The notes beneath the pieces are model-generated. The model was not told the origin of the DNA. It made no database searches and saw only the letters and a program-made list of their open reading frames with translations. The position numbers were made by a program, and so were the translations under genes. This document shows positions 53,697 through 63,018 of a stretch of DNA of 64,000 nt, in pieces (within the stretch, counting starts at the first letter, position 1; each line of letters starts with the position of its first letter). This DNA comes from Alphaproteobacteria bacterium (GTDB lineage Bacteria; Pseudomonadota; Alphaproteobacteria; Micavibrionales; Micavibrionaceae), in the NCBI GenBank assembly GCA_030424975.1, contig JAUHVY010000002.1:124001-188000 (forward strand), in the 5' to 3' direction.

Positions 53697-55574
53697 TCAT
53701 TTCAGGCGGACAATCTTCCCGTCACCTTTCGGTATAATCTTTCCAGGGATATCTTCCTCGCGAATAGTAATAAGCTGTGTTTTATGCGTAATGTCGCCCT
53801 CTATTATGCGGCGCGCCTGATTGCGTAACGATTCTTCAAACATCTTACGAACACCGCGCGCATTGCCGAACGTATCTTTCTTTTTACCTTCTAGGCCGCA
53901 AATAACATGCGCCACCTTTTCCTTTGCAGCCTTATTTATTTTGAAACCGATTTCTTCGACATATGTTTCAAAAATATTTGTCATTTCATCGTCCGTGTAA
54001 TCAGGAAAATCAATAACCACACCAATTCGCGAACGCAAACCGGGATTTGAGTCCAGCATCCAGTTCATCTCCTGTGGGTATCCGGCCATAATCACAACCA
54101 TATTATTCCGGAAATCCTCCATTTCCTTCACAAGCAACGACAGAGCATCTTGGCCGAAATCATTAGGCGAATACCCTTTTTCCAAGCCGTGCGCCTCATC
54201 GATGAATAAAACGCCGCCTATCGCCTTGTTCACGACCTCTTTCGTAATCGTTTCCGTTTGCCCGATATACTGCCCGATCAGGGTCGAGCGATCGACCTCA
54301 ACAACATGTCCTTTTTTGAGAATACGCAGCTCCTTGAATACATCACCAAGCAGGCGTGCAACCATCGTTTTCCCTGTTCCCGGGTTCCCCGTAAAGACCA
54401 TATGCAACGATTGCTTTGTGGTTAGATGCACACCCTTACTGCGGCGCAATTCATTCGCCATGACCGTATAAAACATCATGCGAATTTGTTCTTTTATACC
54501 ATCAAGTCCGATTAATTTATCAAAGGGTTTGAGAACACGATCCAGATCTTCGCGTGTAATAGGGCTCTGGTCCTCCTCCTTTTTTTTGAACGGCAGAAAC
54601 CCCAGAGGCGCTTTTAATTCTGTTTTTAAATCTTCCGGGCAATCATCATTATAAGATGTCAAATCATCCTCATACGGCTCTTCCTCATCCTGCTCAAAAA
54701 CATTATCGCCAAGCTCTTTGTAATATTCATCCGCAGAATAGCTGATATCACCATGATCGCTAAAATCGCGCGGTTCTACTGACAACCCCTTATTTTTTAA
54801 CCAAAAATAAGCATCTCCATACTCTCGTAACGTTGCACTTTTGCGCATGTAATTCACGGCGCGATCTACGTTTTGGTCACATCCGACACCTTCGTAATAG
54901 CAAAGGGCAATATAATAATAAATTTCACTGGCGTAGAATTCCTCCTGCGACAGGCCACGCGTATCAATACATGACAAAGCCCGCAGCAACACCTCAAACC
55001 CGCCTTGCTCATTACCATGATGCGGCCCTTCTTCCTCCCAGAAAAAGCGCAGATAATAGGTGTAGAACGCGCCCAGATACCCCTCATTCATCAAATCAGT
55101 CAAAAGCTTTTCCGATTTCTTACGATTTGTAGAATCACCGCTTTCCCGCAAGGCACAGGCAAGATTATACCGACCATCCTGATTACCCACCTTTGCCGCG
55201 CGCTCAAACAAATCAATGGCGTCAGCCTTACGCACCTGACGCGCAGACATCGGGCGTCCCCACCCATGATAATAACGGGCAAGCAAGCACATAGACGGCA
55301 CATGCTCTTTTTCTATCGCTGTTTTGAGGTATTCTTCGAACTGTTCGGTTGATATACCGGTTTCGCAACCGCCATATAAATATTTGTCACATATCCAATA
55401 TATGGCATCAACATTATCGGCCTGACGGGCCAAATAATGCGCACAGGTCACCAAATCACGCTCAATATTGCTGATTTTATCATACGTGGCCCCGCTTTTA
55501 TTCATGGAACCGCGTAAGGTTTCGTACTCTTCCTTCAGAACAATGAAGCGCTCGATATTAAGATCTTCTGCCAT
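53697..55574 (-). CDS. Sel1-repeat plus CbbX-like AAA+ ATPase
   Basis: A 625-residue fusion. Residues ~90-290 contain Sel1-like repeats (NLACALRESGDSTNRKKSEK, ALCYYEGVGCDQNVDRAVNYM). After an acidic linker (~residues 290-340) comes one AAA+ module: Walker A VFTGNPGTGKTMVARLLG, pore-like GQYIGQTE, Walker B VLFIDEAHGLEKG, sensor AGYPQEMNWML and Arg finger-type RSRIGVVIDFPDY. The module is closest to CbbX/SpoVK/EccA ATPases. Substrate unknown; no rubisco is present. Last gene of the minus-strand cluster starting with thiolase. Confidence 0.88.
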   Translation of the reverse strand: MAEDLNIERFIVLKEEYETLRGSMNKSGATYDKISNIERDLVTCAHYLARQADNVDAIYWICDKYLYGGCETGISTEQFEEYLKTAIEKEHVPSMCLLARYYHGWGRPMSARQVRKADAIDLFERAAKVGNQDGRYNLACALRESGDSTNRKKSEKLLTDLMNEGYLGAFYTYYLRFFWEEEGPHHGNEQGGFEVLLRALSCIDTRGLSQEEFYASEIYYYIALCYYEGVGCDQNVDRAVNYMRKSATLREYGDAYFWLKNKGLSVEPRDFSDHGDISYSADEYYKELGDNVFEQDEEEPYEDDLTSYNDDCPEDLKTELKAPLGFLPFKKKEEDQSPITREDLDRVLKPFDKLIGLDGIKEQIRMMFYTVMANELRRSKGVHLTTKQSLHMVFTGNPGTGKTMVARLLGDVFKELRILKKGHVVEVDRSTLIGQYIGQTETITKEVVNKAIGGVLFIDEAHGLEKGYSPNDFGQDALSLLVKEMEDFRNNMVVIMAGYPQEMNWMLDSNPGLRSRIGVVIDFPDYTDDEMTNIFETYVEEIGFKINKAAKEKVAHVICGLEGKKKDTFGNARGVRKMFEESLRNQARRIIEGDITHKTQLITIREEDIPGKIIPKGDGKIVRLK

Positions 55575-55668
55575 ACCTTGCCGCCCTTAAATGTAATGTG
55601 TGATACATATTGTGGCAAAGGATACGTGAAATTACAAATATTATCGATAAGAAGGGCGGCAAATCAGA

Positions 55669-57459
55669 TTAAAAAGCCTCGGCTTTCATACTCATCAATG
55701 TATCACCACCTGCCATAACCATTTTGAAACGAGCATCCGTTTCCGGCAAGACACGCGCCATAAAGAATTGCGCCGTTTTAATTTTTGTTTCCAAGAATTC
55801 TTTATCACCTTCACCGGCTTCTAATTTCGTTTGCGCAACGAGAACCATTCGGCACCACATATATGCCAAGGCCACAAGCGCAAATTGGCGCAAATAATCA
55901 CTGGACGCTGCGCCCGCTTCATCGGGGTTTTTCAACCCCTTTTGCGCGATCATTGCAGTTGCCTGCTGCAATTTCATAAACGCCTTTGCCATTGGGAAGA
56001 CAAAATCCTGCATCTGCTCATTGCCTTGATGCTCATTGATGAATTCCTGCACCGGATGGAAGAAACGGCGAAGTAAACGCCCGAAATCTTTCGGCATTTT
56101 GCGGCCGACTAAATCCAGCGCCTGAATACCGTTTGTGCCCTCATAAATTTGGGCGATACGCGCATCACGCACAAATTGCTCCATACCCCATTCTGCGATA
56201 TAACCATGACCGCCATAAACCTGCAGGCATTCATTGGCAACCTCCGTCCCCATATCTGTCAGATACGCTTTTACAATTGGCGTCAGCAATGCCACCAAAT
56301 CATCTGCGGCCTGCTTTTCCTTTTCATCGATTGAACGCTCTGCATAGTCAAGCTGTACACCGGTCCAATACGCAAGCGCACGCCCGCCCTCGGTGATTGA
56401 TTTTGCACGCAACAGCATACGGCGCACATCAGGGTGCACAATAATCGGATCCGCGGGCTTTTCAGGTGCCTTCACCCCTGTTAAAGAACGCATTTGCAAA
56501 CGGTCTTTGGCATAGGCCAGCGCGTTTTGATATGCAACCTCACAAATACCAAGCCCCTGCATGCCAACACCAAGGCGCGCAGCATTCATCATCACGAACA
56601 TGGCTTTTAAGCCTTTATGCGGTTCACCAACCAGCCAACCCTTGGCGTCATCAAAATTCATCACGCATGTTGAATTGGCATGAATACCCATTTTATGTTC
56701 GATAGACCCGCATGCCGCACCATTGCGCGCACCGATAGACCCGTCATCATTAATCAGGAATTTAGGTACAACAAAGAGAGAAATTCCCTTTACCCCATCC
56801 GGTGCATCAGGCAATTTCGCCAACACCAAATGCACAATATTTTCGGTCAGATCATGTTCACCTGCCGAGATAAAAATCTTTGTACCTGTGATGTTAAATG
56901 ACCCGTCATCATTCGGCACAGCCTTGGTTTTTATCAAACCCAGATCCGTTCCGCAATGCGGCTCCGTCAGGTTCATGGTTCCTGACCACACACCCTCAAT
57001 CAATTTCGGTAAATAGGTTTGCTTTTGCTCATCCGTTCCAAAATAGTGCAATGCCTCATACGCGCCTTGCGACAGGCCCGGATACATGCCGAAAGACATG
57101 TTTGATGAACAAATCATTTCCTGCATCGCTGTATTCAGAATCACAGGCATGCCCATACCGCCATATTCAGGATCACCGCTTAGACCGCACCAACCGCCTT
57201 CGGCAAATGTGTCATAGGCTTCTTTAAATCCCTTTGGGGTGTAGACCACGCCATTTTCAAAACGGCACCCTTCCTGATCGCCACTCAGATTTAACGGGAA
57301 TAAAACCTGCTCACAAATCTTACCGCCTTCTTCCAAAATCTGATCCCCAAGATCAGCAGAAAAATCTTCATACCCCTCCAATGAGGAAAGCGCATCAACG
57401 TTTAAAACATCATGCAAAACAAAACGAATATCATCAAGAGGCGGATTATAGACTGGCAT
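55669..57459 (-). CDS. Acyl-CoA dehydrogenase
   Basis: FAD enzyme oxidising acyl-CoA to trans-2-enoyl-CoA, electrons going to ETF. The 596-residue length with an extra C-terminal helical region matches the DmdC/FadE5-type large acyl-CoA dehydrogenases. Visible are the N-terminal FVLHDVLN, MNLTEPHCGTDLGLIKTKA, TGTKIFISAGEHDLTEN, and the flavin-region VYGGHGYIAEWGMEQFVRDARIAQIYEGTNGIQALDL. The catalytic Glu lies in EGTNGIQ. It works with the ETF-QO at 4.8 kb and the FadN/FadA pair upstream in the cluster. Confidence 0.94.
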   Translation of the reverse strand: MPVYNPPLDDIRFVLHDVLNVDALSSLEGYEDFSADLGDQILEEGGKICEQVLFPLNLSGDQEGCRFENGVVYTPKGFKEAYDTFAEGGWCGLSGDPEYGGMGMPVILNTAMQEMICSSNMSFGMYPGLSQGAYEALHYFGTDEQKQTYLPKLIEGVWSGTMNLTEPHCGTDLGLIKTKAVPNDDGSFNITGTKIFISAGEHDLTENIVHLVLAKLPDAPDGVKGISLFVVPKFLINDDGSIGARNGAACGSIEHKMGIHANSTCVMNFDDAKGWLVGEPHKGLKAMFVMMNAARLGVGMQGLGICEVAYQNALAYAKDRLQMRSLTGVKAPEKPADPIIVHPDVRRMLLRAKSITEGGRALAYWTGVQLDYAERSIDEKEKQAADDLVALLTPIVKAYLTDMGTEVANECLQVYGGHGYIAEWGMEQFVRDARIAQIYEGTNGIQALDLVGRKMPKDFGRLLRRFFHPVQEFINEHQGNEQMQDFVFPMAKAFMKLQQATAMIAQKGLKNPDEAGAASSDYLRQFALVALAYMWCRMVLVAQTKLEAGEGDKEFLETKIKTAQFFMARVLPETDARFKMVMAGGDTLMSMKAEAF

Positions 57460-57558
57460 GGTTTCTCCTTGTTTGTCTTTGAGAGAATATTATATCACAG
57501 CACGTACAAAGAATCCGCACTTTTTAAGGTATAAAAGATCAAGAATAACGACGTATGA

Positions 57559-58203
57559 TTATTCGTTATCGATTGCAGAATTTTGCGAAATATCGAATGT
57601 GCTCTCTTCTTGTAATGCCTCATCAAAGAAATAAGTTTCCTTTGCATCCATTATAAAACGCTTATAGGCATTATTATCATCATGACGCGGATCAGCATGA
57701 ATAGTCACAATACGCGGACTGTCGGGGCGGCGATCAAAAAGCTCTTCCTTTTCTATTTCGATAATAAAATCAAAATCCTGATCCTTATCGGCAATCGCAT
57801 TCTCCGAAAGATCAAGCCCCCCTTGATGTCGATCCCAAAAGTTTGACTGATCATATGCCTTAAGTCGAAATTCTTGACGTAAAACCGCGTCATAATGACG
57901 CACAAAACCGACATCATCGTATTTACGCAAAGTTTGAACATGCCGCGCAGATTCATCCATCTTTTCAATTGTATCACCATGCTCACCCAACGCCTGATGA
58001 ATACCTGTAATAAATGTCGATTTACCGACCTTATGATTAGCATGAAATCCCACGCGCAACACCCCTGAAGGAGAACATCGCTCTTCTTGCGTTTCACGCA
58101 ACATTTGGGTAAAGCGCTGCATCAAATCATGACTTTCAGCAATAGAGGTCACAAAAAAGCACTCTCCTTTTTGATCTATTGCTCTGGTATCGTTTGGCTT
58201 CAT
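57559..58203 (-). CDS. Divergent TsaE-like P-loop protein A
   Basis: A 214-residue P-loop protein with TsaE-like order. SIAESHDLMQRFTQMLR matches the TsaE N-terminal helix; VGFHANHKVGKSTFITGI is the Walker A region (A55-x4-GKS at 60-62). VRHYDAVLR resembles the HFDLYRL motif, DFIIEIEKE the LVEWPE region, and IVTIHAD the terminal strand. TsaE helps make t6A in tRNA; this copy differs from true TsaE by insertions, so another role is possible. It is the downstream member of a tandem pair (21-base gap) inside the fatty-acid oxidation cluster. Confidence 0.72.
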   Translation of the reverse strand: MKPNDTRAIDQKGECFFVTSIAESHDLMQRFTQMLRETQEERCSPSGVLRVGFHANHKVGKSTFITGIHQALGEHGDTIEKMDESARHVQTLRKYDDVGFVRHYDAVLRQEFRLKAYDQSNFWDRHQGGLDLSENAIADKDQDFDFIIEIEKEELFDRRPDSPRIVTIHADPRHDDNNAYKRFIMDAKETYFFDEALQEESTFDISQNSAIDNE

Positions 58204-58223
58204 TTTTTGACTTATATAAAAAA

Positions 58224-58802
58224 TTAATTCGGATCATACGTCAAAGGCAACATAGATTGCCTATAAGCATCATCACCCGCAATTTCAGCAGATGTTTCAA
58301 TCTCAAGGAAACGGCGGCCCGTATCATCATATTCAAAACGCATCATCATATCGCAGTTTTCACGCATATCTGCACCATGCTCATAAAAAGTCACACCGGA
58401 TGCCACGCGCTCCGGCGGGCGCATATTCGGCATATGGCTCAAACTTGCGCTTGCAAACAAATCATGTGTTTGAATTTGATGTGCGCCGTCATCTGTCGCC
58501 CATTGTTTCCAAACCTGCACCAACCGCGCCTCATCGTGACTGGGGTGTAACTTTTCCTGCACATCATGTTTTTGCGGATAGGCCGTTTCAACAGCGGTAT
58601 TGATAAAGGTGCTTTTACCGCTGCCTGCCTTACCGACCACACCAACCTGCCCTGGGTGGTATAACATCTCTCCGCCATATTCCACACCATAACCTTGCGC
58701 CTCAATCACAGGTAAAACCTTTGCAAAAGCATGCGCCAAACCTTCAAAGGCCTCATCCGATGTCACATCAAATCTGTGTGTGATGCTATGATCTTTTTCC
58801 AT
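58224..58802 (-). CDS. Divergent TsaE-like P-loop protein B
   Basis: A 192-residue paralogue-like P-loop protein. DVTSDEAFEGLAHAFAKVLP corresponds to the TsaE N-terminal helix; VGVVGKAGSGKSTFINTA has a canonical Walker A (G57-x4-GKS at 62-64); HQIQTHDLF corresponds to the HFDLYR region and MMMRFEYDDTGRRFLEIET to the C-terminal strands. It shares GKSTFI with copy A. The gene is 11 bases after the ceramidase gene and 20 before copy A. ATP binding is likely; the partner or target is unknown. Confidence 0.72.
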   Translation of the reverse strand: MEKDHSITHRFDVTSDEAFEGLAHAFAKVLPVIEAQGYGVEYGGEMLYHPGQVGVVGKAGSGKSTFINTAVETAYPQKHDVQEKLHPSHDEARLVQVWKQWATDDGAHQIQTHDLFASASLSHMPNMRPPERVASGVTFYEHGADMRENCDMMMRFEYDDTGRRFLEIETSAEIAGDDAYRQSMLPLTYDPN

Positions 58803-58813
58803 TCAATTTACGC

Positions 58814-59464
58814 TTATTCTGTTATTTCGTTCCTAATATTCAAAATATATGCGCGTGTTGTCAAATATAAGACACAGCCGTTCAAAAGATGCCACATAAA
58901 ATGCGTTCCAAACGGGACAGAATCACAAACCGCCATATCAATGGATCGAAGCGTGAGAGAAAGCGCAAAGACAAATGCAGCGCCTAATAAAACAAGAGGC
59001 TCTCTCATCTTATTCTTCACATGCCAAAACCCGAAGCCGCATAAGAATATAATTGCCGGCGCATACCCTAATGACCCGTTTAATATATGGCGCGGCGCAA
59101 ATTCCGAAGCCACGGTCATCGCGATAAACACACATAATAATCCGGCATATCGCATCGCAGACAAACACATGACATGACGGGTGTATAAAATGATGAATGT
59201 GATCTGATAAAATAAAATCGGCAGAACATCACTCATCATGGTCAGATGAGTTGCAAATGTATGAAAAAGTGTACTGCCCGTTCCAATTGCCAGCAAAAGC
59301 GCAATCAGTATAAGCGCGCCGCCATCCCGTTGGTTTTGCCGTGCGTGCAATAGAAATGCAAAAAACGCCGCCACAAAAAAAGATGCATTTGTTACGGCGT
59401 TTAAAGGCTCTGCCCATAAACCGGGATTTAATCGCTCACAGTACAGGTCAATATAATCACCCAT
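58814..59464 (-). CDS. Alkaline ceramidase-family membrane hydrolase
   Basis: A 216-residue integral membrane protein of the ceramidase/CREST family, hydrolysing ceramide to sphingoid base and fatty acid. It has about seven hydrophobic segments. The family start (YCERLNPGLWAEPLNAVTN) is present. The metal site is intact: S64 and H68 in STLFHTFAT, D79 in MSDVLP, and H188/H192 in GTHFMWHLLN, with spacings equal to human ACER3 (S77, H81, D92, H217, H221). The ATG directly follows the stop codon of the HAD-ECH gene with no gap, so it is part of that operon. Confidence 0.9.
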   Translation of the reverse strand: MGDYIDLYCERLNPGLWAEPLNAVTNASFFVAAFFAFLLHARQNQRDGGALILIALLLAIGTGSTLFHTFATHLTMMSDVLPILFYQITFIILYTRHVMCLSAMRYAGLLCVFIAMTVASEFAPRHILNGSLGYAPAIIFLCGFGFWHVKNKMREPLVLLGAAFVFALSLTLRSIDMAVCDSVPFGTHFMWHLLNGCVLYLTTRAYILNIRNEITE

Positions 59465-61891
59465 TTAATTTCTAAGCGGCTTCCCCGTACTTAGCATATG
59501 CTCGATACGATCAAGTGTGCCATCATGACGTAAGAGATGCATAAATTCTGACAGCTCAAGCTTTAACAGCTCATCCTCGGTCAATGTTTCGGTGTAGTCT
59601 TTTTTACCACCCGATAAAACATTCGCAAGGTGTCCGGACACGACAACATCATACGGTGTTGCAACGCCGCTTTTGCGCATATCGCCAACCGCCATCTCCA
59701 ACGCAAGCTTTGCCCCTGCACCGCCAAGACGAATATTATCAACCTTTTCAGGCGCTTCATATCCATCGGCCATCTTCAAGGCGCGTTGCTTCGCATCATA
59801 GAGCAACCGATCACGATTCATCGTGACGCCGTCCGTATGTCTGAAATACCCGATATCAATCGCATCAAATGCCGACTTGGCAACCGTTGCCATACCGATT
59901 GTTTCAAAGGCCTTACGCACCGCACCGACAGGTGTTGTGTCAGGTGAGAACCATAATGATTCCTTATCAATTTTACCTAAATCCTTGGCAAACTTTTCTT
60001 TTTCACGCTCTTGAAACCTTAGGATCATTTCCTTACATCCACCCCAACCGGGAATCAGACCAACGCCGACCTCTACCAAACCCGTATAGGTTTCAGCATG
60101 AGCCTGCACCGCATCCGCAGCCAGAAGAATTTCACATCCACCGCCCAATGCCATACCGCTTGGCGCGCTGATCATCGGGAAAGGCGCATATTTTAGATCC
60201 ATAAAGACCTTCTGCCCGCGCGCAACAAATCCTTCGACCTGCGGCCACATCGCGATATTGATCATAAAGATCGCCAAGCCCAAATTCGCACCGGCAGAGA
60301 AATGTGACGCCTCGTTATAAATAACCAGTGCCTTATACTCGTCCGATTTCTGAATAAGTTTGTTCGTTTGCTCCAACAGATTGAAAATGTCCTCATCAAA
60401 AGTGTTCATTTTTGATGTTTTTTCAAAACATAGTACACCGTCGCCGACATCCCATACCTTCGCCGATCCGTTCTTCAAAACAGGTTCAGACGTTAGCTTA
60501 ATATCACTAAGGAGCAACACACCATCAGGGCGCACAACATCATGATATTCACCGTCCGTACCGAAATATTGCTGCCTACCGTTTTCAATGCGATAGAAGG
60601 TCGCACCGCTTTCTGCCACTTGGTCAAGAATATCAGGAACACCGATATCATCATCCAACAACTTATCGGCAAACCATTTCGCACCAAGGGCATCGATCAT
60701 TTCGAACGGGCCCATTTTCCAATTATAGCCCAGCTTCATGCCTTCATCGATATCATGAACCGTATCGGCAATTTCACCGACAAGTTCGGCCGCATAATAA
60801 AGCGTATGCTTTAAGACTTCCCATGCATACTTGCCGCCCGCATCATCGGTTTCGACCACGGCGCGCAAACCCTTACGGCCCGCATCGACACTGTCCAATT
60901 TCGGTTTATCGGCCTTTGCGTATTGGCTCTCATCAAATTTATCTTTATTGATGGCTAAGGCCTGCTTTTCCTTTTTGCCTTTTTTCGCATCAGGATCAAG
61001 GCGATAAAACCCGCCCTTGCCTTTACGACCGGTATATCCGCCCTCAATCATGCCATGGATGAACTTATAGTCCTCATACGCGCCGCGATAGGCATCATCC
61101 TTGGGCAAAGTAGAGAGCAAACTCTCCGAAAGCTTGGGCATCAAATCAATACCAACCAAATCAATCAAACCAAAGACCCCTGTTTTTGGGATACCAACGG
61201 GCTTGCTCATCACCGCATCAGCGACTTCGATCGGTACATTTTGTTTGATGGCTTCGTTCACGCCAACCGTCAACCAGAACACACCTAATCGGTTTGCAAT
61301 AAAGCCCGGCGTGTCATGACATTGGACAACACCTTTACCCAATCGCACGTCACAGAATTCACGCACCGTTTCAACGGCGTCCTTGCGTGTTTCCTTGCCA
61401 ACGATCAGTTCCAACAAGCGCATATAACGCGGCGGATTAAAAAAGTGCGTGATCATGAAATCTTTTTTGAATTCCGCGCTCTGCCCTTCCGCCAATTTAT
61501 GCAACGGAATGGTTGAGGTATTCGATGAAATTATCGACCCTTTTTTGCGATGTTTTTCAAGCAAAGCATAAGTCTTGTGTTTGATCTCAAGATTTTCAAC
61601 GACAACCTCGATAATCCAATCAACATCCGCAAGCTTGTCCAGATCATCTTCCAGATTGCCTGTTTCAATCATCTTTGCGTTGCTTTTGCGCATGAACGGT
61701 GCGGGATCGGCCTTCAACATCTTTGCCACCGCACCTTCGGCGAATGCATTACGGTTACCGCCGAAGTCTTCTAACTTAGGCGGAACAATATCCAGCAAAA
61801 CAACCGGAAGCCCTGCATTTGTGACTTGCGCGGCAATTCCGCTTCCCATCACGCCTGCGCCGATTACGGCGACTTTCTTAATCTCTGTCAT
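59465..61891 (-). CDS. fadN: 3-hydroxyacyl-CoA dehydrogenase / enoyl-CoA hydratase (FadN-type)
   Basis: A bifunctional beta-oxidation enzyme of 808 residues. The dehydrogenase comes first (NAD motif VAVIGAGVMGSGIAAQ at the N-terminus; NTSTIPLHKLAEG, HFFNPPRYMRLLELI, DTPGFIANRLGVF), the hydratase-type domain last (FSAGANLGLAIF; APSGMALGGGCEILLAADAV; VEVGVGLIPGWGG). This HAD-then-ECH order is opposite to E. coli FadB and matches Bacillus FadN. The ATG at 61891 overlaps the thiolase stop codon (TAATG), giving translational coupling; the frame extends upstream to 61939 but within thiolase. Confidence 0.94.
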   Translation of the reverse strand: MTEIKKVAVIGAGVMGSGIAAQVTNAGLPVVLLDIVPPKLEDFGGNRNAFAEGAVAKMLKADPAPFMRKSNAKMIETGNLEDDLDKLADVDWIIEVVVENLEIKHKTYALLEKHRKKGSIISSNTSTIPLHKLAEGQSAEFKKDFMITHFFNPPRYMRLLELIVGKETRKDAVETVREFCDVRLGKGVVQCHDTPGFIANRLGVFWLTVGVNEAIKQNVPIEVADAVMSKPVGIPKTGVFGLIDLVGIDLMPKLSESLLSTLPKDDAYRGAYEDYKFIHGMIEGGYTGRKGKGGFYRLDPDAKKGKKEKQALAINKDKFDESQYAKADKPKLDSVDAGRKGLRAVVETDDAGGKYAWEVLKHTLYYAAELVGEIADTVHDIDEGMKLGYNWKMGPFEMIDALGAKWFADKLLDDDIGVPDILDQVAESGATFYRIENGRQQYFGTDGEYHDVVRPDGVLLLSDIKLTSEPVLKNGSAKVWDVGDGVLCFEKTSKMNTFDEDIFNLLEQTNKLIQKSDEYKALVIYNEASHFSAGANLGLAIFMINIAMWPQVEGFVARGQKVFMDLKYAPFPMISAPSGMALGGGCEILLAADAVQAHAETYTGLVEVGVGLIPGWGGCKEMILRFQEREKEKFAKDLGKIDKESLWFSPDTTPVGAVRKAFETIGMATVAKSAFDAIDIGYFRHTDGVTMNRDRLLYDAKQRALKMADGYEAPEKVDNIRLGGAGAKLALEMAVGDMRKSGVATPYDVVVSGHLANVLSGGKKDYTETLTEDELLKLELSEFMHLLRHDGTLDRIEHMLSTGKPLRN

Positions 61892-63018
61892 TAGATCGCC
61901 TCCAGAACCGTAGCCACACCCTGTCCGCCGCCGATACACATTGTTGCAAGGGCATATTTCCCACCCTCACGCTTAAGCAAGGTTGCGGCCTTACCCGTGA
62001 TACGCGCACCCGATGTACCAAGCGGGTGACCAAGAGCGATTGCGCCACCGTCAATATTGACCTTATTGATATCAATCCCCAAATCCTTGATCACGGACAG
62101 ACCTTGCGCGGCAAATGCCTCGTTCAATTCAATGATATCAATATCATTGATCGTCAAACCTGCGCGCTTTAATGCCTTTTTGGTTGCCGGTACGGGGCCT
62201 ATACCCATAATTTCTGCTGCACAACCTGCAACGGCAATACTTTTGATCCTTGCGATTTTTTCCAGACCATGCTGATCGGCATAAGCTTCGCTCGCAACCA
62301 AAACCGCGGCGCTTCCGTCCGTTAACGGTGATGATGTCGCCGCCGTGACTGTTCCGTCAGACAGAAATGCGGGCTTCAATGTTGCCAACTTCTCGGTTGT
62401 TGAATCACCGCGAATTGTGCCGTCTTCCGCGACGTCACCAATCGGCACGATTTCATCATTAAATTTCCCTGCTTTTGCTGCAGCCGCAGCCTTATGATGA
62501 GAGGCAACGGCAAACTCTTCTTGTTCAGCGCGGCTAATCTCATATTTTTTTGCCAGGTTTTCCGCCGTTTCACCCATACTGATATAGGCTTGCGGGTATT
62601 CTTTATAAATGGCTGGGTTCGGCATCGGGTTAAAACCACCCATCGGAATGCGGCTCATGCTCTCAACACCTGCTGCAATAAAAACTTCACCTGCATCCAT
62701 TTGGATCATGCCTGCGGCTGTATGGATTGTTGTCATGGATGAGCCACAAAAACGGTTAATTGTTGCGCCTGCAACGCTTTGCGGTAAACCTGCATGTCCG
62801 GCAACCAAACGTGCAATATTGAACCCCTGCTCGGCCTCAGGAAACGCACAGCCCATAAGCAGGTCTTCGATATCATCGGCCTTTACGCCTGTGCTTTCAA
62901 CCAACGCTTTGATAACGGTTGCGGCCATATCATCCGGACGAACCTTCGCCAGAGCCCCCTTCATCGCGAAATGCATCGGAGATCGTTTAAAGCCACATAT
63001 GACAACTGATTTTTGCAT
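61891..63018 (-). CDS. fadA: Acetyl-CoA acyltransferase (3-ketoacyl-CoA thiolase)
   Basis: Cleaves 3-ketoacyl-CoA to acetyl-CoA and a shortened acyl-CoA. The 375-residue protein has the nucleophile Cys in NRFCGSSMTTIH near residue 91, NEAFAAQGLSV, the GGAIALGHPLGTSGAR His region, and the second catalytic Cys in TMCIGGGQGVATVLE. First gene of the long minus-strand cluster. GGGAACAATC is a weak ribosome-binding region before the ATG. Confidence 0.95.
   Translation of the reverse strand: MQKSVVICGFKRSPMHFAMKGALAKVRPDDMAATVIKALVESTGVKADDIEDLLMGCAFPEAEQGFNIARLVAGHAGLPQSVAGATINRFCGSSMTTIHTAAGMIQMDAGEVFIAAGVESMSRIPMGGFNPMPNPAIYKEYPQAYISMGETAENLAKKYEISRAEQEEFAVASHHKAAAAAKAGKFNDEIVPIGDVAEDGTIRGDSTTEKLATLKPAFLSDGTVTAATSSPLTDGSAAVLVASEAYADQHGLEKIARIKSIAVAGCAAEIMGIGPVPATKKALKRAGLTINDIDIIELNEAFAAQGLSVIKDLGIDINKVNIDGGAIALGHPLGTSGARITGKAATLLKREGGKYALATMCIGGGQGVATVLEAI

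Follow-up and report, generated by a model that had tools for sequence, protein, structure and literature searches.

A ceramidase-like hydrolase and two TsaE-derived NTPases in an accessory-gene slot of a Micavibrionaceae fatty-acid oxidation operon

Organisation of the locus

The window analysed here is a stretch of 64,000 nucleotides (contig JAUHVY010000002.1, positions 124,001 to 188,000, assembly GCA_030424975.1) from an alphaproteobacterium of the family Micavibrionaceae, order Micavibrionales. Seven open reading frames lie on its minus strand with the order, domains and spacings described in an initial annotation of this DNA (Table 1). From the thiolase to the Sel1-AAA+ gene the spacings are a 1-bp overlap (thiolase/HAD-ECH), 0, 11, 20, 99 and 94 bp, the start codon of the ceramidase-like gene following the HAD stop directly, and the first five genes thus have the tight spacing of an operon, as that annotation had proposed. 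The HAD-ECH gene was started at the ATG at 61891; the mechanical ORF start is a GTG at 61939. A sequence scan found no minus-strand terminator-like site in either of the gaps that flank the ACAD gene (99 and 94 bp), so all seven genes could share one transcript, although the scan as a whole is weak evidence (10 promoter-like sites versus a shuffle mean of 18.4, and 13 terminator-like sites versus 9.9). As a check for foreign composition, GC3 was taken; it is 0.34 in TsaE-like A and 0.44 in TsaE-like B, compared with 0.455 (sd 0.061) for 53 ORFs of the window.

Table 1. Genes of the locus, with positions in the window
Gene product	Position	Strand	Evidence
Thiolase (FadA-type acetyl-CoA C-acyltransferase), operon core	61891..63018	-	PF00108 1.1e-66, PF02803 1.3e-49
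3-hydroxyacyl-CoA dehydrogenase / enoyl-CoA hydratase (HAD-ECH), operon core	59465..61891	-	PF02737 2.2e-45, PF00725 4.4e-21, PF00378 3.4e-11
CREST-superfamily (alkaline-ceramidase-like) membrane hydrolase	58814..59464	-	PF05875 1.7e-9
TsaE-like B: TsaE-derived P-loop NTPase, subfamily B, 192 aa	58224..58802	-	AlphaFold and PDB fold matches
TsaE-like A: TsaE-derived P-loop NTPase, subfamily A, 214 aa	57559..58203	-	AlphaFold and PDB fold matches
Acyl-CoA dehydrogenase (ACAD) with C-terminal extension, FadE-type, operon core	55669..57459	-	PF12806 1.9e-36, PF00441 2.2e-23
Sel1-repeat and CbbX/SpoVK-type AAA+ ATPase	53697..55574	-	PF00004 1.4e-16, AAA_lid_6 1.5e-13, Sel1 7.7e-8

The thiolase, HAD-ECH and ACAD genes, together on one strand, form an ordinary FadA-FadN-FadE beta-oxidation operon. 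The thiolase scores 433 bits against NCBIfam TIGR01930 (cut-off 240.6), and in the HAD-ECH protein the HAD domain comes first, which is FadN-like. Genes, gene order and strand are those of the FadA-FadN/B-FadE operons of Alpha- and Gammaproteobacteria; the Micavibrionales differ, however, in that the junction between HAD and ACAD has been opened for accessory genes. At 46 loci from outside the order (what remained of the best 80 among 506 matches once two had been assigned to the order itself) the thiolase is upstream of HAD in 44, a ceramidase is found at none, and HAD and ACAD are separated by 200 bp or less in 42 of the 43 that bear an ACAD. Within the order, HAD-ECH relatives occur in 123 of 142 genomes (E<=1e-150), and HAD loci were taken from 105 genomes, 52 with HAD and ACAD on one contig and one strand and another 52 with no called ACAD. 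The gap in the first 52 has a median of 2.8 kb; it spans 0.3-6.9 kb in 49 and is 150 bp or less in just three. The operon is also often apart in this order, HAD being followed by at least 5 kb without an ACAD in 34 of the 105 genomes. In Micavibrio and the rest of its order, the HAD-ECH/ACAD junction has become an accessory-gene slot.

The Sel1-AAA+ protein is a SpoVK/CbbX-type ATPase, unrelated to the TsaE-like pair. It shares the AAA core and an AAA_lid_6 match with the CbbX, SpoVK and EccA ATPases but differs from them in its N-terminal Sel1 repeat, and it falls below the cut-offs of all three models (225.7, 287.6 and 199.1 bits versus 459, 423 and 467; the 287.6 bits are to TIGR02881). Such a gene also lies downstream of ACAD in G003, G016 (two copies), G024, G073 and G074, and it is loosely associated with the slot genes, co-occurring with them only partly. 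The annotation had seen three ATPases in one unit; one of them, however, is of another family, 94 bp beyond ACAD and only in part a companion of the slot, and half of the TsaE-like genes found are away from fad.

The CREST hydrolase and its linkage to fad genes

The ceramidase-like protein matches PF05875 with 37.9 bits (cut-off 32.5), and its profile has human ACER3 as the sole match in the PDB at E<=1 (E 0.0028). Its zinc-site residues S64, H68, D79, H188 and H192 are invariant in all ten aligned sequences, and their spacing (S+4 H, +11 D, H+4 H) is that of S77, H81, D92, H217 and H221 of ACER3, which are reported to be required for activity (PMC9436119). Unlike ACER3, the window protein belongs to a bacterial branch. 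The ceramidase label itself spans a wider CREST hydrolase superfamily whose members are described as acting on several lipids, and the same account gives the bacterial ceramidase-like groups no known function and obtained no functional lead from their gene neighbourhoods (PMC3146951).

A ceramidase was found in 35 genomes, in 28 of which it is close to that of the window (at least 38% identity; six at 24-29% identity and the partial gene of G080 were dropped). It lies in the fad slot or adjoins HAD or ACAD in 18 of the 28, so its linkage to fad is recurrent. Five of these 18 (G073, G077, G092, G094 and G128) are outside the 52 genomes of the gap count; in G094 the ceramidase adjoins ACAD with HAD elsewhere, and in G077 its neighbour is HAD, an ACAD not having been seen. 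The other ten carry it elsewhere. G031 was counted with these ten; an ACAD-like piece over two frames (52-58% identity) lies about 1.1 kb downstream of its ceramidase, at a contig end. With TsaE-like genes in the slot of ten genomes as well, relatives do not show the separation of ceramidase and ATPases from fad that the annotation had named as the sign of an accidental linkage.

TsaE ancestry of the two small ATPases

Window proteins A and B are truly TsaE-derived, as profile, fold and nucleotide-site residues agree, and the name "TsaE-like", at first a guess, has been borne out. Single sequences show little of this. TsaE models match neither A nor B in Pfam (E<=1) or NCBIfam (E<=0.1); among seven relatives scanned, PF02367 finds G022 only (E 0.0014, 19 bits versus a cut-off of 26.6), and single TsaE-like sequences align weakly to a TsaE profile (6-97%). 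A profile of 24 members, however, aligned by hhalign with 29 alphaproteobacterial TsaE at 98.2% (E 5.3e-14) over 116 of 118 columns, whereas seven control P-loop sets (EngB, LolD, two ABC sets, an EngA-like GTPase, SelAAA and RecA, of 2-9 sequences each versus 29) reached at most 95.3% over 17-66 columns. It is the aligned extent rather than the probability that carries this comparison, because genuine TsaE, too, aligns with the LolD (ABC) control at 96.4%, over 35 columns. The controls align over the P-loop region only, and a P-loop artefact was rejected.

Predicted models of A (pLDDT 68.7, pTM 0.70) and B (pLDDT 90.4, pTM 0.87) both take the TsaE fold: at E<=1e-3 each has nine PDB matches, every one a TsaE chain, with Z of 15.9 (A) and 11.7 (B) to 1htw versus 6.0 for the best non-TsaE structure of either, and no other fold stands out in the VIA-align lists. 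A sequence search of the PDB by the TsaE-like profile was judged uninformative, the matches listed (60 of 237) being P-loop neighbours such as ABC and EngA proteins without any TsaE, and a scan of the genome's contigs with TsaE-like B alone as query found nothing. When a 23-member profile was run against 385 alphaproteobacterial genomes (E<=1e-7, up to 8 candidates scored per genome) it recovered the known members and 20 further proteins, all of them TsaE by score and EW motif.

TsaE (YjeE, YdiB, HI0065; PF02367) and the TsaE-like family share, besides the fold, the Walker A GK[ST] (24 of 24 members), the switch-II Asp (24 of 24) and the Mg-binding Glu (23 of 24); A and B have all three. (The fragmentary member G085 was excluded from one alignment, which holds 23 of the 24.) The family differs in what surrounds this site. 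The residue after the Glu is Trp in all 29 TsaE but His in 18, Asn in three and Trp in three TsaE-like proteins, so that Glu-Trp has become Glu-His or Glu-Asn in 21 of 24, and the switch Tyr is kept in 27 of 29 TsaE but in only three of 24 TsaE-like proteins. In the window, the place of Trp109 is taken by Asn in A and His in B, and that of Tyr82 by Phe in B. E. coli TsaE is reported to lose nucleotide binding in T43A and E108A, whereas W109A and Y82A spare binding and lower the ATPase (PMC4330362). On these alignments, the residues that would couple the TsaE ATPase to its partners have mostly gone from the family.

At least 24 members occur in the window's family of bacteria, 12 in the fad slot and 12 away from fad. 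This count is a minimum, for which 20 regions were followed and P-loop-only matches left out; it leaves aside longer matches in G017, G069, G075 and G138, which by length look like TsaE, and a borderline 238-aa protein of G064, outside the 1e-5 limit. Slot genes were found in ten genomes, and an eleventh (G073) has a 59-aa contig-end fragment, too short for the limit of 60 aa and left out of the count of 24. The family also differs from TsaE in numbering up to three copies per genome, at varied places and with fast divergence.

Proposed role and competing explanations

The reading that we prefer, with a probability of about one half, is that the slot combines a CREST hydrolase that feeds beta-oxidation with TsaE-derived NTPases that serve as nucleotide switches of another partner. 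The hydrolase most likely cleaves an acyl bond in a lipid that is scavenged or belongs to a membrane, and the fatty acid so freed would be degraded by the flanking Fad enzymes. A and B should bind and switch on ATP, because the Walker A Lys-Ser, switch-II Asp and Mg-binding Glu are kept, and they are most likely nucleotide-dependent on/off regulators of that other partner, because the Trp and Tyr are gone, two residues without which E. coli TsaE has a lower ATPase; their mode would be that of TsaE, which binds, hydrolyses and leaves. A joint pathway of hydrolase and TsaE-like proteins is not required, since 12 of the 24 lie off fad and three slot genomes (G003, G022 and G076) have no ceramidase. 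To our knowledge, TsaE has a single job, t6A synthesis. A TsaE-derived family that keeps the nucleotide site and drops the coupling residues would show a second use of the fold, and provides natural variants that separate the TsaE residues for binding from those for coupling; the slot, in turn, gives the bacterial ceramidase-like CREST proteins a recurrent metabolic neighbour, fatty-acid oxidation.

It is very improbable that A and B are extra copies still serving t6A synthesis, the job described for TsaE (PMC4330362, PMC11648230). Their predicted fold and nucleotide site are those of TsaE, and in vitro t6A synthesis is reported to be unaffected in E. coli W109A (PMC4330362), but the same genome has a separate canonical TsaE elsewhere with SPTF, DLYR and EW, the equivalents of Y82 and W109 are gone from most members, and up to three copies per genome with fast turnover misfit a housekeeping role. 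In a midpoint-rooted tree with a long-branch warning, moreover, the ten TsaE rows included (of 29) are split from all other sequences by a branch with support 100/99. Scarcely more probable is the ceramide catabolism that the annotation had suggested, in which the ceramidase, assisted by the ATPases, would free fatty acid from ceramide of prey or of the cell itself. The PF05875 match, the complete CREST site and the operon coupling to beta-oxidation are in its favour, but CREST members act on several lipids, and by NCBIfam cut-offs none of the seven PF00155 proteins encoded in the genome, which is reported as 100% complete, is a serine palmitoyltransferase; two of them, a 5-aminolevulinate synthase and a BioF-like protein, touch such models far below the cut-offs. 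Ceramide made by the host itself is therefore unlikely, and ceramide, if used, could come from prey or environment. Ceramide catabolism was rejected on this search, run without a known sphingolipid maker as positive control.

A stronger contender, if still a doubtful one, is hitchhiking cargo: a hypervariable slot that profits from fad transcription, with the TsaE-like proteins and the BIG proteins (1000-aa slot proteins of other genomes) serving, for example, conflict with prey, phage or rivals rather than lipids. Slot cargo differs between congeners, as a neutral insertion site would predict. Of four same-genus pairs of slot TsaE-like proteins, two are 27% identical and one 35%, against 83-90% for HAD (90% in the fastest case, at 27%); four of eight BIG pairs are 22-24% identical, with HAD at 80-85%. 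On the tree, genes must have entered or left the slot at least twice, and the third paralog of the window's genome adjoins DotM-like and T4CP-like genes and is sister to a slot gene of G076 (99/93). Among the BIG pairs, however, the other four are 69-97% identical; the ceramidase, with 53-95% identity within genera, is better conserved and is linked to fad in two families (f1 and f7); TsaE-like genes and ceramidase co-occur (6 of 13 versus 3 of 39 genomes, p 0.005, uncorrected for kinship); and the only PADLOC matches of the seven proteins scanned are generic AAA or P-loop ones, on which a defence system was rejected. More tentatively still, the Glu-His proteins may be a lineage-specific TsaE superfamily of exchangeable switches that move between loci (fad slot, Dot/Icm-like locus, single sites), with divergence or replacement at the pace of conflict genes, and each control a local partner; in the fad slot, the CREST hydrolase or a slot protein controlling the use of prey lipids would be that partner. 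Against mere hitchhiking stands also the fourth TsaE-like pair, G016/G074, which is 72% identical with a dN/dS of 0.14; with frames open as well, pseudogenes were rejected, and in this one close pair the TsaE-like genes are under purifying selection.

Organization of the fad operon and its HAD-ACAD junction

The window comes from a two-contig host genome of 2.43 Mb, in which it covers positions 124001-188000 of contig 2. Among named sequences, those closest to its HAD-ECH (FadN-like; HAD) protein are from uncultured Alphaproteobacteria and 'Micavibrio sp.' A check of ORFs, domains and coordinates agreed with the initial annotation on the seven minus-strand genes, their strand and their spacing. 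Successive gaps from thiolase through HAD, the ceramidase-like CREST-superfamily gene and two small ATPases (B, then A) are -1, 0, 11 and 20 bp. Longer gaps precede the acyl-CoA dehydrogenase gene (FadE-type; ACAD), at 99 bp, and then the Sel1-AAA+ gene, at 94 bp; a terminator scan of these last two gaps found no terminator-like site on the operon strand. Beyond the operon are genes for FadL-type, thioesterase, SCP2-domain and coiled-coil proteins (Table), whose positions past ACAD are kept in several relatives, so that conservation of the neighbourhood extends past the seven-gene cluster.

The fad core is ordinary, but the HAD-ACAD junction (the slot) is not. Outside the order, the 46 nearest loci (from the best 80 of 506; according to their titles chiefly alpha- and gammaproteobacterial) have thiolase upstream of HAD in 44 cases. 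Of the 43 that contain ACAD, 42 have it no more than 200 bp from HAD, and ceramidase is present in none of the 46. Inside the order Micavibrionales, HAD loci were compared in 105 genomes, 52 of which carry HAD and ACAD on one contig and strand; the gap is 150 bp or less in only three of these and 0.29-6.9 kb in the rest. Slot contents in the 52 intact loci vary, with a lysine-rich protein in 37, ceramidase in 13, large proteins in 12 and TsaE-like proteins in 9. Another 34 of the 105 genomes have at least 5 kb downstream of HAD without ACAD; the junction is therefore also a breakpoint of the operon.

The large proteins (two scanned) gave no confident Pfam match, and their identity in eight same-genus pairs was 22-24% in four and 69-97% in the other four. 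The lysine-rich protein, which is missing from the window's own slot, had no Pfam match (one scanned), nor did the protein that often occupies another slot, at the thiolase-HAD junction (one scanned), for which within-genus identity ranges from 21 to 87% (15 pairs).

Coordinates of slot genes, TsaE-like genes and neighbouring features (L, loci from genomes of the order; C2, contig 2 of the host genome)
Feature	Coordinates	Position or occurrence
FadL-type, thioesterase, SCP2-domain, coiled-coil proteins	window:49660-53485	beyond operon
Large slot proteins, 970-1173 aa	L036:5220-8504, L043:10131-13559, L153:2260-5772, L044:8220-11273, others	12/52 genomes
Lysine-rich protein, mostly 80-115 aa	L036:4912-5172 and relatives	before ACAD, 37/52 genomes
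Thiolase-HAD slot protein, ~380-430 aa	L036:11064-12272, L044:4428-5594 and relatives	second slot
Region of third TsaE-like paralog of host (231 aa) with its neighbours	L152:1532-8627	contig 2, ~587.5-594.6 kb, outside window
Tandem TsaE-like pair	L149:6738-7726	genome G019, away from fad
Canonical TsaE of host	C2:746260-746649	one copy

TsaE ancestry of the small ATPases

No family model in Pfam or NCBIfam scans names the small ATPases; profile comparisons and predicted structures indicate that they descend from TsaE. In a nine-row alignment built from relatives, F31, G60 K61 S62, D105, G129, E134 and D145 are invariant. The TsaE-like set comprises at least 24 members, all from genomes of the window's own family. 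In a profile-profile alignment the 24-member profile scored 98.2% (E 5.3e-14) against 29 alphaproteobacterial TsaE, with 116 of 118 columns aligned, as against 17-66 columns and at most 95.3% for seven control P-loop sets. TsaE itself, when paired with the LolD control, reached 96.4% across 35 columns, and it is aligned extent, not probability alone, that separates the TsaE match from P-loop controls. AlphaFold models were good for B (pLDDT 90.4) and fair for A (68.7), and with these predicted models every PDB structure match at E≤1e-3 was TsaE (9/9 for each protein), with Z scores of 15.9 (A) and 11.7 (B) compared with 6.0 for the next fold. A 23-row profile, applied to 385 alphaproteobacterial genomes at E≤1e-7 with the best eight or fewer candidates scored per genome, recovered known members and 20 other proteins, all 20 being TsaE by score and EW motif.

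In a joint alignment the family shares with TsaE the Walker A GK[ST] (24/24), the switch Asp (24/24) and the Mg-binding Glu (23/24). The next position, however, is Trp in 29/29 TsaE but in 3 of the 24 TsaE-like proteins, of which 18 have His and 3 have Asn there (Asn in A, His in B), and the switch Tyr, a column that depends on the alignment, is found in 27/29 TsaE but 3/24 TsaE-like proteins, B having Phe at this place. Mutants T43A and E108A of E. coli TsaE no longer bind nucleotide, whereas Y82A and W109A keep nucleotide and TsaD-TsaB binding with reduced ATPase activity (PMC4330362). In vitro t6A synthesis survives W109A (PMC4330362), so that loss of the Trp alone is no proof of function loss. 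Within the TsaE fold the small ATPases form a new branch, outside TsaE as curated, whose cut-off and switch residues they do not match, and judged by their residues A, B and their relatives do not resemble a working TsaE; the host keeps a canonical TsaE (Table). No description of a TsaE-like/TsaE paralog family was found in the open-licence PMC literature (titles among the matches listed), where a mycobacteriophage annotation paper was the one match for TsaE-like proteins, nor any paper there on TsaE together with Micavibrio.

The predicted ceramidase-like hydrolase and its possible substrates

A ceramidase match (E≤1e-5) occurs in 35 of 142 genomes of the order and is close (at least 38% identity) in 28; in 18 of these 28, from two families, the gene sits in the slot or, where the contig is broken or the operon split, adjoins HAD or ACAD. 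The only PDB match to the profile at E≤1 was ACER3 (E 0.0028). Ser64, His68, Asp79, His188 and His192, invariant in 10/10 aligned proteins, have the spacing of ACER3 Ser77, His81, Asp92, His217 and His221; alanine mutants of the four His and Asp residues lose activity, and S77A lowers it ~600-fold (PMC9436119), and thus the protein should be a zinc lipid hydrolase, as predicted from these residues. The CREST survey places bacterial ceramidase-like proteins among groups without assigned function, one mainly alphaproteobacterial, and reports no telling gene neighbours (PMC3146951). No ceramidase plus beta-oxidation operon in Alphaproteobacteria, and no paper on Micavibrio with ceramidase, was found in the open-licence PMC literature; the main text of the M. 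aeruginosavorus ARL-13 genome paper is without 'ceramid', 'fatty acid' and 'beta-oxidation' (PMC3189940).

Endogenous ceramide is an unlikely substrate, since none of the seven PF00155 proteins of the host reaches the cut-offs of serine palmitoyltransferase models (500-670 bits): 5-aminolevulinate synthase and a BioF-like protein score 169-270 bits, and for the other five no such model is among the matches listed. Ceramide from prey or the environment, or another acyl lipid, may be the substrate.

Proposed working and turnover of slot genes

Most likely, judging by family and neighbourhood, the ceramidase-like hydrolase would free a fatty acid at the membrane for degradation by the Fad enzymes. 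The kept nucleotide ligands suggest that the TsaE-derived proteins most likely work as TsaE does on TsaD-TsaB, binding ATP, docking on a partner and letting go once the ATP is hydrolysed. In the strongest competing explanation the slot is simply a home for fast-changing genes with another job. The 24 TsaE-like genes are evenly split: 12 are slot genes, from 10 genomes, and 12 lie elsewhere, while one further genome carries a fragment at a contig end. Congeners G018 and G093 share 90% identity in HAD and 77% in ceramidase but 27% in the slot TsaE-like protein; the corresponding HAD and TsaE-like values are 85% (over 88 residues) and 27% for G022 and G076, which are without ceramidase, and 83% and 35% for G000 and G003. 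Some slot copies therefore seem to have been replaced by distant paralogs. Close orthologs are under purifying selection: G016 and G074 share 89% (HAD), 67% (ceramidase) and 72% (TsaE-like, dN/dS 0.14). TsaE-like genes are present in 6/13 intact loci with ceramidase versus 3/39 without (p 0.005, a value that ignores kinship).

In a midpoint-rooted tree with ten of the 29 TsaE rows, one branch (100/99) separates these ten from all other sequences, and five slot genes, B among them, group as a clade (100/99); at least two gains or losses are needed to explain which genes are in the slot. The host's third paralog, sister to the fad-slot gene of G076 (99/93), is flanked by a DotM_C protein (PF23127, 2.2e-48) on one side and a protein with a sub-cut-off PFIN match on the other, near a T4CP-like protein of 1040 aa. 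The G019 tandem genes overlap by four bases and are tree sisters (100/98), and so the family also duplicates locally.
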